Source: Parahoeflea alexandrii
Lineage (GTDB): Bacteria; Pseudomonadota; Alphaproteobacteria; Rhizobiales; Rhizobiaceae
Reading direction: 5' to 3'
Assembly (NCBI RefSeq): GCF_027214025.1
Contig: NZ_JAPWHB010000002.1
Span: 1 to 64,000 of the forward strand
Length of the DNA stretch: 64,000 nucleotides
In this document: positions 17,209 to 21,946 of the stretch, one piece after another
How positions within the stretch are numbered: the first letter of the stretch is position 1
How the letters are laid out: each line of letters starts with the position of its first letter
Notes under the pieces: generated by a model
The model's database searches: none
What the model was told of the DNA's origin: nothing
The model's input: the letters and a program-made list of their open reading frames with translations, nothing else
Made by a program: the position numbers and the translations under genes

Positions 17209-17994
17209 TCATCCCACCATGTTCGGATCAAGGTTCAGGATCGTCATAACACCCTCTCCGGGGATCTGGAATGACTGCTCTGTTATCTCATATCTGGCTG
17301 CGGAAGCCTTGTCGAACCATGCATCGGCCCCGATCTTCCGCGGAAAGCGTTGCTCGTCCTGGTTCTGATTGTGGAGCAATTCAAACGCGAAGCTGTCCGC
17401 ATCCAACTCTTCCCGCGGAAACCACCAAGTCGCCATCTTGGGAGCGGATCTGTGCCACTTCCTGCCGCCAGTTCCGTGGCTGATCATCATCGAAGCCGGA
17501 TAAGTGTCGCTGTCGATCATCCTTATAAGAGTAGCCGTGAGGCTTGTCTTAAAGATCCCTGCCACTTCCTTCAGCGCCTTCAGATCAAGGCGAGGATGCT
17601 TGCGGCACTCGGCCTTGAACATGGACCACGGCATCAAGAGATCTGCAGCATACTGATCAGCAGCCCGCTCCACATTGTTCGTCTTCGAGAACTTGCCTAT
17701 GTCGGTTGCGCGGCATGCGACGGTCTCGCCACGGTGATGAGCCCAATGGCCGAGTTCATGGGCAATCGAGAAGCGCTCGCGCTGAGGCATGCCATTCGGA
17801 TTGACTGAGATTATCCCCTTATTCCCCAGACCCGTAATCATTGCCTCGCAGCACTTGAGACAGCGCCGTTTCACGCGAAGACCGACATAGTAAGCTATTG
17901 CCTCGATATCGATATCGCGCGGTTCTGTAATACCAAGGGAACGAAGCAATGCATCAGGAGACAAATTTGTAGGAAGCGGATCAATTCTCTTCAT
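17209..17994 (-). CDS. ImmA/IrrE-type metalloprotease
   Basis: From ATG 17994 the protein is 261 residues. The zinc-protease motif is HELGHWAHH (His79, Glu80, His83), with the downstream helix NNVERAADQYAADLLMP carrying the third ligand. Two Cys pairs before it (CLKCC) are unusual. ImmA/IrrE proteases cleave repressors or regulators in response to DNA damage or mobile-element signals. The start lies 14 bases inside the upstream small gene, and the three genes sigma-like, small acidic, protease form one leftward operon divergent from the ubiquitin-like genes. A role as the switch of this locus is inference. Confidence 0.85.
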   Translation of the reverse strand: MKRIDPLPTNLSPDALLRSLGITEPRDIDIEAIAYYVGLRVKRRCLKCCEAMITGLGNKGIISVNPNGMPQRERFSIAHELGHWAHHRGETVACRATDIGKFSKTNNVERAADQYAADLLMPWSMFKAECRKHPRLDLKALKEVAGIFKTSLTATLIRMIDSDTYPASMMISHGTGGRKWHRSAPKMATWWFPREELDADSFAFELLHNQNQDEQRFPRKIGADAWFDKASAARYEITEQSFQIPGEGVMTILNLDPNMVG

Positions 17995-18358
17995 TGTTTT
18001 TATCTTCGTCTTCCAACTCCCCGAGATCTTCAAGAATTGCTTCAAGATCACCGTCCATGGAGCCATCCCCAAATCGAGCAGCCAAAGTGAGACCTGCCGT
18101 TGAATCACCCGCTTTCGCGCGGTCATAGCGACGCTTCGCACGCTCCTTATCTAGGTTGCTTACGCCACTAGACATATTGCTGGAAAATGCGCCTGCGCGA
18201 GCGCGTTCTAATCGCGAATTCGCAAGCCTGACTTTTGCACTTTCGATAGCATTATTGAACATCTGAATATTTGCCTCATCTTCCGGACCGACAGGGCTGT
18301 CGTCCGAGAGGATGAAGTCTATGAAGTTGTCCACGGCGTCTTTCTTATTGTCGCTCAT
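17981..18358 (-). CDS. Small acidic protein, unknown, in the sigma/protease operon
   Basis: 125 residues from ATG 18358, which shares bases with the sigma-like gene's stop (TGATG). It has acidic ends (ILSDDSPVGPEDEAN and LEAILEDLGELEDEDKNNEEN) around a basic helical middle (LERARAG, DKERAKRRYDRAKAG). No family recognised. Position between a sigma-like protein and a metalloprotease, with coupling on both sides, suggests an anti-sigma, adaptor or protease substrate. That is a guess from context. Confidence 0.7.
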   Translation of the reverse strand: MSDNKKDAVDNFIDFILSDDSPVGPEDEANIQMFNNAIESAKVRLANSRLERARAGAFSSNMSSGVSNLDKERAKRRYDRAKAGDSTAGLTLAARFGDGSMDGDLEAILEDLGELEDEDKNNEEN

Positions 18359-18969
18359 CACGCCAGTCCTTCCTTCGCTCGATAATCATCGGCGAGGTTG
18401 TCGATCTTCCGCTTCAGCCGGGTGCGCAGCGCCTCAAGGCGCTTGGCGTCCACTCCCACTGCCTCCTGCAGATCCTTTCCTATCAAGCCTTCTTGGATAC
18501 CCATGAGGAGCAGCTGCATCTCGTCGTCATCCGCGAAGTGTTCCTCCAGCTTGGAAAGCGCGTCTTCTATGATCGCCTTGCAAGCAAGCCCGTCATCGTC
18601 GTCGTTCGCGGCCACCATCTCAAGGTCCTCGGAAGTCACGATAGCGAAGCCCTGGTCCAGGCGCACGACCTTTCTTTCGTCGGTCACGAATGCACTATCG
18701 CTGCGCAGGCTCTTCATCACGCCCGCCACGAACGGGACGAATCCGTGCGCCCGCGGCCAGGGCCGTTTCCCTTCCGCGATCCGAACGTATGCCTCGTTGA
18801 TCAGGTCATCTGGAGACGGGAAGCCGCTGGTGCCCGCAATGAAGCGGGCAATGCGAGCAAGGTTGTCCCGATCCTTGCCGGAAAGCGCGTCGAACGCCGC
18901 AATGGCGTCTTCCGCGCCGTGGTATTCTTCATCAGGCTGATCCACCAGGTCCTCCGAATTCTCTTCCAC
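18358..18969 (-). CDS. Sigma-70-like (ECF-like) regulator
   Basis: 203 residues from GTG 18969, with a strong AGGAGG about 10 bases upstream (an overlapping ATG two bases away is in another frame). The N-terminal half has a region 2-like helix set (DDLINEAYVRIAEGKRPWP ... FVPFVAGVMKSLRSD). The C-terminal half has a region 4-like helix-turn-helix (GLIGKDLQEAVGVDAKRLEALRTRLKRKI). It is probably a specialised sigma factor or sigma-derived regulator. It is the first gene of the leftward arm and shares its upstream region with the ubiquitin-like operon, so it is the best candidate to control that operon. Confidence 0.75.
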   Translation of the reverse strand: MEENSEDLVDQPDEEYHGAEDAIAAFDALSGKDRDNLARIARFIAGTSGFPSPDDLINEAYVRIAEGKRPWPRAHGFVPFVAGVMKSLRSDSAFVTDERKVVRLDQGFAIVTSEDLEMVAANDDDDGLACKAIIEDALSKLEEHFADDDEMQLLLMGIQEGLIGKDLQEAVGVDAKRLEALRTRLKRKIDNLADDYRAKEGLA

Positions 18970-18999
18970 ATGTGTCGATCTCCTCCTTGATCTTCACTC

Positions 19000-19070
19000 T
19001 GTTTGCGCGCGGGAACGTGGATTCCGACAAATTTTTTTCGTGTCGGAATCATCGGTTCGGTGCGCAAACA
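19000..19070. promoter_or_regulatory. Concentric palindrome in the divergent promoter region
   Basis: Two nested inverted repeats share one centre at 19035. The inner arms GATTCCGACA (19020-19029) and TGTCGGAATC (19041-19050) are perfect 10-mers. The outer arms TGTTTGCGC (19000-19008) and GCGCAAACA (19062-19070) are perfect 9-mers. The site lies between the GTG of the sigma-like gene and the ATG of the ubiquitin-E2 gene. A GGAAC (19012-19016), like an ECF -35 element, falls between the arms. It is probably a shared operator or a double-promoter symmetry. An RNA hairpin in the 5' leader is an alternative. Confidence 0.6.
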
Positions 19071-19119
19071 AGGTGGACGAACTGTCCTCCCCAACTCCAT
19101 CAACCAGGAATCACATACT

Positions 19120-20223
19120 ATGACTATCGAACATCAGGAAACGGACCGCGGCAAGAACACTACTGTCGAAATCGCGGGTCTCGATCTCAACTTCCACGCT
19201 TTTGCGCTCGACACGCGCACGCCTACCGGTGGCAAGATCGCCAAGGCCGCCGGCTTCAATGGGGACCAGTATCCTCACGTCCTGCAGTGGCGCGACGACG
19301 GCGATCTCGAAGAACTCCGTGCCCGGGAAGAGGCCGACCTCAGCAATGGCGTGAAGTTCATCGTTGCCGAAAGCGACGGCACCAATCGCATCGCCATCGA
19401 AGGTGAAGGTCTCGATTGGCCTGCGGACGAAATCTCCGGGGCCGTTGTCCGCAAGCTAGGCCGGATCCCTGCCGACCGCTTCGTCTACCTCGAACGCACG
19501 GACAAACCTGACCGCCTTGTGGAAGATGCCGACATCATCAAGATCAAAAAGGGTGGTGTCGAGCAGTTCCGCAGCCGCAAACCCGAGATCTGGGAGTTGA
19601 TCGTACAGGGCAAGAAGATCATCTCAACCATCCCCGTCATCTCGGTTGTGGACGCGCTTACTCGCGCAGGATTCGATCCGAACGCCTGGATCATCATCCT
19701 GAAGGTCGCAGGCCAGCCGAAGCGTCAGCTTTCGGTGGGCGACGAAATCGATCTGCGCGCGCCGGGGATCGAGAAGATCCGCCTGACGGCGAAGGATGTG
19801 AGCAATGGTGAGGCGCGCACTGCGCCTTCCCGTGACTTCGCGCTTCTGGAAGTTGACGAATCCTACCTGGACGGTCTCGGCCTTCAGTGGGAAACCCGCA
19901 ACAGCGACGGCCACCGCTGGTTGATTATTCATGGTTATCCGGTTCCCATTGGCTACACCGCAACCACCACGACGCTCGCCCTTATGATCCCACCTACGTA
20001 CCCGCAGTCCCAGATCGACATGTTCTACGCGTATCCGCCGTTGCAGCGGGCAACAGGCGCGGCCATTCCTGCGACCGAGGCAGTCCAGAGTGTCGGCGGT
20101 CTGCCCTTCCAGCGCTGGTCACGCCACCGCGGCACTGTTGTTCCGTGGAACCCTCAATGCGACAACGTCGTCACCCACCTCGCTCTGGTAGAGTCCTCGC
20201 TGGCGAAGGAGGTTGACGAATGA
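19120..20223 (+). CDS. Triple ubiquitin-like domain fused to an E2-like domain
   Basis: 367 residues from ATG 19120 (AGGAA 9 bases upstream). Three beta-grasp (multiubiquitin-type) repeats are suggested at about 15-85, 90-148 and 155-226. An E2-like domain follows at about 238-364 (Prok-E2 family E) with IPPTYPQSQIDMFYAYPPL, QRWSRHRGTVVPWNP and VTHLALVESSL. The only Cys is Cys347 (NPQCDN), at a position not expected to be catalytic; the conserved His336 of RWSRH is present. No Gly-Gly tail follows the repeats. It is coupled by a 4-base overlap to the JAB-E1 gene. Known relatives are predicted bacterial ubiquitin-like conjugation systems with likely anti-phage roles; the target here is unknown. 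Confidence 0.82.
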   Translation: MTIEHQETDRGKNTTVEIAGLDLNFHAFALDTRTPTGGKIAKAAGFNGDQYPHVLQWRDDGDLEELRAREEADLSNGVKFIVAESDGTNRIAIEGEGLDWPADEISGAVVRKLGRIPADRFVYLERTDKPDRLVEDADIIKIKKGGVEQFRSRKPEIWELIVQGKKIISTIPVISVVDALTRAGFDPNAWIIILKVAGQPKRQLSVGDEIDLRAPGIEKIRLTAKDVSNGEARTAPSRDFALLEVDESYLDGLGLQWETRNSDGHRWLIIHGYPVPIGYTATTTTLALMIPPTYPQSQIDMFYAYPPLQRATGAAIPATEAVQSVGGLPFQRWSRHRGTVVPWNPQCDNVVTHLALVESSLAKEVDE

Positions 20224-21617
20224 TGCCTGAACGCACCCTCGCGATGGCAGGTGTCACCCACTCCATGCTCATGGCTCATCTGCTCTCTGACGGCAATGAG
20301 GCTGCTGCAATCCTAATCTGCGCGCCCTCGCCCGGCCCCAGGCAGCGGCTCGTCGTTCGACAGGCTATACTGGTTCCGCATGAAGCCTGTCCCGTTCGAA
20401 AGCCGGACGCCATCGTCTGGCCTGGCGTCTATATCGAAGACGCTATAGATATCGCCGAACCTGATGGATTCGTGATCATTCTGCTTCACTCCCATCCGGG
20501 TGGCTGGTTGCGGTTCTCGCATATCGACAACGAAAGCGACGCGCGCGTTATCCCCGGTCTGTTCGAAGCTTTCGGCAGTTGTCACGGTTCGGCGATCATT
20601 ACCCCAGAAGGCGCAATTCGTGCTCGCCTCTACGCGCCCGACATGACTTGGCAGCCCGTGGATCTCGTGACGATCGCCGGCGACAACATCAGCTACTGGT
20701 GGAATGATTGCATCAACAACATTGTCCCGGCTGGTCGACCTCTCGCCTTTACGAGTGCCATGACCAAGGAACTCTCCAGGCTGTCTGCTGCAGTCATCGG
20801 CGTGTCGGGAACCGGATCCATTGCGGCTGAACAGGTCGCGCGCCTCGGCTTCGGGTCTGTAACGCTGATCGATTCCGACAAGATCGAGAAGAAGAACCTC
20901 AATCGCATCCTGAACTCCACCACTGAGGACGCGCAACGAGTCCGTCCGAAGGTCGAGATGTTCGCCGCCGCTATTGCTGCGCACCGAGGCGACGGAATCG
21001 CGGTCAGCATCGCAGACACTCTTGGAACGCGGGAGGCAATCGAAGCCGTCGGTCAATGCGACCTGATCTTCTGCTGCGTGGATAGCAAGGAAGGCCGACA
21101 GTACGCCGACCTGATTGCTTCAGCCTTCCTGATTCCGCTCTTCGATGTCGGCGTTACGATCCCGACATTCCTTGATGAAGGCACGGTTACCATCGCGGAC
21201 GTCAGCGGGCGGATCGACTATATCCAACCTGGCGGCTCCACGCTTTCCGATCGCGGCGTGTACACCCAAGAAAGTCTGCGGGCCGAGTATCTGCAGCGCA
21301 CCGACTCGGCTGCGTTCCGGGACGAACTCGCAGCGGGCTACATCAAGGGAATCCACGAGGAGGCTCCCTCGGTGATCACTCTGAATATGAGAGCCAGCTC
21401 TGCCTTGGTGAACGAGTTCGTCGCCCGCGCCTACCCCTATCGCCAAGAGCCGAACCGGAACTACGCGCGCGTCGTATTCAGCCTCGCGGCTTGTGAAGAG
21501 GACCACTACTCGGAGGACGACTTCGAGCGGACAGAGAACGCACTCCTTGGTCGGGGAGCTACCGAGCCGTTGCTCGGGCTGCCATTGTTCCGCAAGACGC
21601 GAAAGGATGCAGCATGA
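20220..21617 (+). CDS. JAB peptidase-E1 (ThiF) fusion protein
   Basis: 465 residues. The N-terminal JAB/JAMM metalloprotease domain (about 1-150) has its zinc motif LLHSHPGGWLRFSHID (His90, His92, Ser100, Asp103). The C-terminal ThiF/E1 domain has an ATP-binding loop VIGVSGTGSIAAE (192-204), LIDSDKIEKKNLNRI (217-230) and CDLIFCCVDSKEGR (280-293). In the crossover loop where E1 enzymes carry the active Cys, this protein reads PGGSTLSDRGVY (337-348); there is no Cys between 286 and 425. The JAB half would process or remove the ubiquitin-like domain and the E1 half would activate it. It overlaps both neighbours by 4 bases. Confidence 0.85.
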   Translation: MMPERTLAMAGVTHSMLMAHLLSDGNEAAAILICAPSPGPRQRLVVRQAILVPHEACPVRKPDAIVWPGVYIEDAIDIAEPDGFVIILLHSHPGGWLRFSHIDNESDARVIPGLFEAFGSCHGSAIITPEGAIRARLYAPDMTWQPVDLVTIAGDNISYWWNDCINNIVPAGRPLAFTSAMTKELSRLSAAVIGVSGTGSIAAEQVARLGFGSVTLIDSDKIEKKNLNRILNSTTEDAQRVRPKVEMFAAAIAAHRGDGIAVSIADTLGTREAIEAVGQCDLIFCCVDSKEGRQYADLIASAFLIPLFDVGVTIPTFLDEGTVTIADVSGRIDYIQPGGSTLSDRGVYTQESLRAEYLQRTDSAAFRDELAAGYIKGIHEEAPSVITLNMRASSALVNEFVARAYPYRQEPNRNYARVVFSLAACEEDHYSEDDFERTENALLGRGATEPLLGLPLFRKTRKDAA

Positions 21618-21946
21618 GGTTCGCTCGTTGGTTTCGACAACTGTGGGGCAAATATGGCCCAGCCCGTCGGCTGCAGATCATTGAGGGCGACACACTGCCG
21701 TCGGACTTGCCTGCTCGCGACCTTGTCCTGACACGGGACACTGGAGACGACTGGAGCGTCGGTATGCGATGCCCGTGCGGATGTGGTGAGACAATTGAAC
21801 TCATGATCCTGAGGGAGGCGCGTCCGCGTTGGGATATTCGCCTCAACGCAGCAGGCCATCCAACTCTACACCCTTCGGTCTGGCGGAAGACTGGATGCCG
21901 ATCGCATTTTTGGGTGCGCGACGGGCGAGTCCTTTGGTGCGACTAG
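21614..21946 (+). CDS. DUF6527 protein, predicted zinc-binding
   Basis: 110 residues; start overlaps the E1 stop by 4 bases (ATGA). The Cys pattern CPCGC (53, 55, 57) with a distal GCRSHFW and LWC (Cys95, His98, Cys109) suggests a zinc site. DUF6527 proteins are regular companions of multiubiquitin/E1 operons, and a substrate-adaptor or E3-like role has been suggested by context only. The operon ends here: 91 bases separate it from the next gene. Confidence 0.8.
   Translation: MRFARWFRQLWGKYGPARRLQIIEGDTLPSDLPARDLVLTRDTGDDWSVGMRCPCGCGETIELMILREARPRWDIRLNAAGHPTLHPSVWRKTGCRSHFWVRDGRVLWCD

Follow-up and report, generated by a model that had tools for sequence, protein, structure and literature searches.

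A candidate portable sigma-factor switch with a CapP-type protease opposite a Bub operon in Parahoeflea alexandrii

How is a bacterial ubiquitination-like (Bub) operon switched on, and does the gene set divergent from it belong to this operon alone? The question is raised by a 64,000-nucleotide stretch of Parahoeflea alexandrii (NZ_JAPWHB010000002.1; the whole stretch is called the window), in which a predicted Bub operon forms the right arm of a divergent locus, and genes for a sigma-factor-like protein, a small acidic protein and a CapP-type metallopeptidase form the left arm (Table 1). Our answer is that the left arm probably adds a fourth kind to the portable controllers of immune operons, and that this one activates: CapP would free a dedicated sigma factor from its anti-sigma factor, and a symmetric promoter pair would travel with the three-gene cassette among Bub, CBASS (cyclic-oligonucleotide-based antiphage signaling system), Pycsar, 6A-MBL and uncharacterised operons.

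Promoter-like sites and the sigma-like protein

The region between the arms provides the first argument. The pattern TGTCGGAAT-N12/16-GCGCAAAC occurs in the 5.54 Mb genome at exactly the two sites listed in Table 1, and the reversed pattern, used as a control, does not occur. Across cassettes the sites consist of TGTCSG, 17 or 18 bases, and GC with an A/T-rich stretch, the spacing being common to both arms of a given locus. The pattern tested was an outward pair of TGTCSG-N17/18-GCHH. Such strict pairs were found in 13 out of 18 discovery loci compared to 0 out of 9000 shuffles, and in none of 15 Bub loci that lack the cassette; a single half-site is present in one of these (L111). The pattern was fixed before its trial on 15 held-out sigma loci fetched later. 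Here the strict pair occurs in 5 out of 15 loci (shuffle expectation 0.0), the pair with one mismatch in 12 out of 15 (0.11 expected), and the sigma-side half-site likewise in 12 out of 15 (0.14 expected).

A further argument arises from the kinship of the sigma-like protein. If a profile of 28 relatives is compared by hhalign with four extracytoplasmic function (ECF) sigma factors, it matches at 98.3% (E 2.6e-14, residues 30-186), although this comparison is not blind, as the four had been found by an earlier sigma profile; two of them (L061, L062) are confirmed as sigma factors by Pfam. The profile covers, by profile comparison only, both the sigma2 and the sigma4 domain of the ECF factors. 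A blind PDB search with the same profile led to SigH (E 2e-5, residues 38-183). Pfam Sigma70_r2 is matched by 8 out of 28 members with a best E of 1.6e-4, which lies below its cut-off, and the NCBI annotation assigns the sigma-like proteins of L120, L121, L123 and L125 to the sigma-70 family. The first-pass annotation of the locus had left it to profile models whether the protein falls outside the sigma families: the family profile places it near ECF sigma factors, but taken alone it reaches the cut-off of no sigma model. By these profiles it is a remote ECF sigma relative, for which binding of RNA polymerase is predicted.

The geometry of the sites bears on what they are. Within a half-site the distance from start to start is constant at 23 or 24 bases, whereas the gap between the -35 parts runs from 6 to 32 bases and reaches 152 in L122 and 178 in L014. 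Because of this combination two separate divergent sigma promoters fit better than a single dimer operator, which we disfavour; the promoter part of the model is well supported by the sequences. The same observation counts against the rival that the sigma-like protein is a DNA-binding repressor, replacing CapH on the dyad and shutting both arms until CapP, assisted by the small protein, removes it after damage. This rival can point to the near-perfect dyad formed by the half-sites, with arms of about 30 bases in L057, and to the fact that all Cap regulators named in the part of PMC13373217 drawn on here (CapW, CapH with CapP, CapK with CapS) act via relief of repression. The profiles, however, tie both domains to sigma factors, and neither the sigma-like nor the small protein matches a helix-turn-helix (HTH) repressor family in scans with Pfam, PADLOC and NCBIfam-type models. 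We regard a repressor as unlikely.

The protease and its predicted target

The protease of the left arm is of the CapP type (Table 1), and HExxH is kept in 28 out of 28 CapPs of complete cassettes. No CapH-like repressor was found beside it: the neighbours have no HTH-family match, and the profile of the small protein finds no CapH in the PDB. Among 50,697 phage records CapP gave 2 partial matches.

The small protein matches no known family in Pfam, PADLOC or NCBIfam-type scans, and its AlphaFold2 model is mostly helical with no stable predicted fold (predicted local distance difference test, pLDDT, 63; predicted template modelling score, pTM, 0.26). Its C-terminus is more telling. All 28 relatives have in the tail of the small protein an AAR or AFR motif, with an acidic stretch behind it and a DL-containing end (26 out of 28 by regular expression, L123 and L127 having QAAR). 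In five sigma loci without CapP (L126, L128, L130, L131, L066) the partner is shorter or fused and has no AAR-acidic tail; these partners were weakly matched (12-20 bits when six sequences were searched), and that of L128 was read by eye. Because the tail is absent where CapP is absent, and because its arginine recalls the DdrO loop cut by PprI in the part of that literature drawn on here, the tail may be the target of CapP. Of the two neighbours, the small protein is the more likely substrate of the protease, and the sigma-like protein the less likely one. Operon position and the loss of the tail point indirectly to the small protein as a candidate anti-sigma factor.

The loci without CapP also have features of their own. 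In L066:6095-9842 the sigma-like gene is followed by an SNF2 helicase with an N-terminus similar to the small partner. In L128, L130 and L131 the sigma-like gene and a short partner lie beside a methyltransferase, which is PCMT-like in L128 and annotated as rRNA adenine methyltransferase family in L130 and L131.

On balance we favour a portable, defence-linked switch in which CapP destroys an anti-sigma factor, and the sigma factor released in this way fires both arms. As long as the cell is quiet, the sigma-like protein would be kept inactive by the small acidic protein. Single-stranded DNA from phage attack or DNA damage would be the signal to CapP, which would cleave the small protein within its conserved C-terminal stretch of AAR and acidic residues. 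Once released, the sigma factor would recruit RNA polymerase to a pair of divergent promoters that share one sequence, one per arm, so that the switch could boost its own expression and turn on its cargo, which in this locus is the Bub conjugation operon. What we infer in this chain of events is the activity of the sigma factor in the cell, the anti-sigma function, the cleavage, the single-stranded DNA signal and the protection against phage.

A number of observations weigh against this switch. Its anti-sigma action and cleavage are reached by inference. L124 keeps the sigma gene, a tailed partner (with MAFKS in the tail) and Bub, and a 478-aa protein of no known family (L124:5526-6962) replaces CapP. 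The sigma-like protein of the window alone matches no Pfam model and stays sub-threshold for the NCBIfam sigma model TIGR02937 (E 0.015, 14.9 bits), the curated cut-off of 42.9 bits being missed by its relatives in L120 (33.9) and L125 (25.5) as well. Its AlphaFold model has two helical parts (pLDDT 78.5, pTM 0.48), and the top six Foldseek matches are transcription complexes or sigma factors, but with a best E of 0.064 these are not significant. No promoter pair, even with one mismatch, is present in 3 out of 15 held-out loci (L120, L128, L129) or in the discovery loci L012 (which by eye has GCAGAC at one side), L058 and L065. The one-mismatch count of 15 out of 18 discovery loci includes a wrong pairing in L019, whose true sigma-side site ends in GCAGA, and 14 is the fairer number. 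The held-out loci are moreover related and not fully independent, L122 resembling L014, and L130 and L131 being near-identical.

In favour of the switch it counts that, by eye, TTTCWGAAA replaces TGTCSG as the -35 part in both L058 and L120, whose sigma-like proteins are 55% identical. A proteasome-like protease, also suggested by eye for the 478-aa protein of L124, found no support in follow-up searches.

If the sigma factor drives both arms, the small protein could still be an activator, a chaperone or a sensor subunit, which CapP cuts to end the response, or CapP could have another target. Its lack of a known family and its poor structure model leave room for such a role. The order of sigma factor, partner and protease, however, recalls sigma/anti-sigma/protease sets such as Calp, and a tail that is missing together with CapP is what one expects of a protease target, which makes this variant improbable.

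The cassette and its cargo

The sigma-like protein and its profile served as queries, as did in one search the ubiquitin-like (Ubl)/E2 protein, and 28 complete cassettes were obtained in this way. The gene order sigma, small, CapP on one strand is found in 28 out of 28, and all 28 are divergent from a cargo. The labels of the cargo come from annotation, from Pfam and NCBIfam matches and from resemblance to the window. Bub is the cargo of 11 cassettes (window, L006, L008, L012, L014, L057, L064, L122, L123, L127, L129), a DUF2188 pair that of six (L015-L018, L063, L087; IS21 lies between in L015), CBASS of four (L019, L065, L118, L125), Pycsar of two (L013, L088), and a Ubl/E2/JAB/E1 operon (L058) and 6A-MBL (L120, a label that replaced CBASS) of one each. 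The three others (L117, L119, L121) face small unknown genes, DUF3892 and Beta_protein. The labels are thin for L063, where DUF2188 derives from likeness to L016, and for L118, where CBASS derives from annotation alone; since sampling was by sigma likeness, the cargo shares are no census. A minimum of 12 cargo changes is needed on the tree of CapP (for 9 kinds the lowest possible number is 8), and the clade L058/L120/L125 (99/97) holds three cargo kinds. Gene order, family kinship, the paired motif with its spacing and the exchange of cargo are shown at the level of sequence.

Among 13 strong genome matches (E 2e-14 or better) six are complete cassettes (G340, G690, G658, G502, G1068, G1071), six are without a complete cassette (G378, G052, G464, G1000, G950, G862), G052 being doubtful as it overlaps a leucyl-tRNA-synthetase-like frame, and G573 is cut by the contig end. 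A sigma match was found in 29 plasmid records; 23 of these were examined and gave 18 complete cassettes, the other six being five further Cereibacter and one further B. barranii record.

The left arm had been proposed as a sensor and switch dedicated to the right arm. The part concerning a sensor and switch agrees with the CapP-like protease, the sigma-like protein near ECF sigma factors and the paired promoter-like sites, but dedication has to be given up. When 297 genomes from the family of the window were sampled, the cassette was present at 2 out of 15 Prok-E2_E loci, so that the left arm is largely absent from other copies of the right arm, and the same three genes stand opposite many other defence operons. 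Among five relatives of the Ubl/E2 protein, L006 and L008 have the complete set, L010 a remnant, and L007 and L009 no cassette. The 13 out of 15 loci without a cassette would suit a separate element, toxin-antitoxin-like or a stress cassette, lying beside the Bub operon by chance, but with 28 out of 28 cassettes divergent from a cargo, 25 of them of defence or candidate-defence kinds, and paired promoters in between, this is very hard to maintain.

Several relatives deserve mention in their own right. TIR-domain genes lie in or near the DUF2188 cargo (L087:6681-7385, L018:9424-10416), possibly an uncharacterised defence operon. The whole six-gene set of L057 (L057:119-9264) is embedded in a cluster of prophage head genes, with a minor head gene on one side and the head protease/major head genes on the other. 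In the remnant L010:7700-8093 the promoter dyad is still present, but the sigma-like protein is reduced to about 50 residues and the Ubl protein to 31. In L009:4477-7863 a Bub locus is preceded by a UvrD-type helicase with an N-terminal M78 protease domain. The genome of the window itself has a second Bub-like locus (L011, G000:C1 at about 53-58 kb); to the left of this locus lie genes for a small HTH protein and an M78 protease instead of the sigma cassette.

The Parahoeflea locus among known regulators

Table 1. Predicted features of the divergent locus, with positions in the window.
Feature	Length	Position	Strand	Evidence
CapP-type ImmA/IrrE metallopeptidase with HELGH	261 aa	17209..17994	-	PADLOC capP (E 1.7e-62); Pfam PF06114 (E 1.2e-14); PDB CapP 7t5t (alignment of 11 relatives, E 1.4e-18)
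Small acidic helical protein, candidate anti-sigma	125 aa	17981..18358	-	Conserved C-terminus TLAARFGD...LEDLGELE; no family
Sigma-factor-like protein	195 aa	18358..18945	-	Profile of 28 relatives compared to ECF sigma factors and PDB SigH
Predicted sigma promoter, left arm, TGTCGG-N17-GCAAAC		19001..19029	-	Exact genome pattern search; conserved in relatives
Predicted sigma promoter, right arm, TGTCGG-N17-GCAAAC		19041..19069	+	Exact genome pattern search; conserved in relatives
bubA-bubB fusion, three Ubl domains and E2-like domain	367 aa	19120..20223	+	Pfam Multi_ubiq (3 stretches, E 4.8e-25), Prok-E2_E (E 7.2e-36); PDB multi-ubiquitin protein 9d59 (E 1.2e-49), Citrobacter BubB (E 3e-37)
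bubCD, JAB peptidase fused to E1-like adenylyltransferase	465 aa	20220..21617	+	Pfam ThiF (E 1.4e-22), Prok-JAB (E 1.7e-6); PDB Citrobacter BubCD (E 9.9e-146)
DUF6527 protein with Cys/His pairs	110 aa	21614..21946	+	Pfam PF20137 (E 4.1e-24)

The six genes lie in two divergent three-gene arms where the first-pass annotation had placed them, with small corrections. In the right arm its account of the content (three Multi_ubiq stretches with Prok-E2_E, Prok-JAB with ThiF, and DUF6527, all by Pfam) and of 4-base overlaps at both junctions stands. The left-arm genes overlap as well, with sizes corrected to 1 base between the sigma-like and the small gene (4 bases if the small gene begins at GTG 18361) and 14 bases between the small gene and the protease. 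The sigma-like gene, formerly started at 18969, most likely begins at GTG 18945, because L008 has an in-frame stop just upstream of the matching position, as by eye does L010, and L006, again by eye, has no start codon there. With this start the first codons are 174 bases apart instead of sharing a 150-base upstream region. The layout is not due to chance, since L006, L008, L012, L057 and L064 have the full set of six genes in this divergent order too. Transposase-like frames, named by eye, flank the locus (IS66-like at about 14.6-16.7 kb, IS110-like at 22.98-23.5 kb).

As the E1/JAB protein matches the solved BubCD, and the Ubl and E2 parts match the solved BubA and BubB, the right arm is by sequence a Bub operon, with predicted conjugation activity. 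By eye, BubCD carries an HSHP-x6-S-x2-D JAB motif and a GVSGTGS loop; for the DUF6527 protein a PDB search gave no meaningful relative. Compared to the Citrobacter operon of BubA, BubB and BubCD, three Ubl domains and the E2 are here joined in one fused protein, with the sigma cassette as putative controller.

In the Calp circuit of type III CRISPR (CalpL/CalpT/CalpS), CalpT is cleaved. According to the part of the Calp literature drawn on here, this circuit likewise unites a protease, an anti-sigma and a sigma factor in one defence circuit, but its protease CalpL is a SAVED-Lon protein that binds cA4, whereas here we find a CapP-type metallopeptidase and a circuit tied to many operon kinds.

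A CapP-type protease beside an immune operon, as judged by family match, is shared with CapH and CapP of CBASS and other immune operons, where CapP binds single-stranded DNA and cleaves CapH (PMC13373217, PMC10904395, in the parts drawn on here). In the present cassette the sigma-like and the small protein take the place of a CapH-like HTH repressor, none of which was matched, and this replacement suggests activation instead of derepression. CapK with CapS, and CapW, are likewise portable controllers beside Bub, CBASS and other immune operons, and CapKS also accompanies Bil and YegP-like genes (PMC13373217, same part); the former, however, is a kinase with a STAS repressor, the latter a WYL repressor, and neither is a sigma factor with a protease. 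PprI/IrrE with DdrO of Deinococcus has the M78 protease in common, PprI being stimulated by single-stranded DNA and cutting its regulator at a loop with a key arginine, but that regulator is an HTH repressor (PMC10904395, same part). Among the matches listed from the open-licence literature we recognised no description of the sigma/small/CapP cassette; prior mention is possible in work on CapH/CapP (Lau 2022) and Bub (Gong 2025, Ye 2026).

If the reading as a portable activating controller is right, any operon opposite such a promoter pair is a candidate defence system, which would apply to the DUF2188 cargo with its TIR genes, to DUF3892 and to Beta_protein. The promoter pair would provide a testable code that points to operons not yet recognised as defence. 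Besides relief of repression, immune operons would then also be run by sigma circuits that act positively, amplify themselves and are coupled to a DNA-damage protease.

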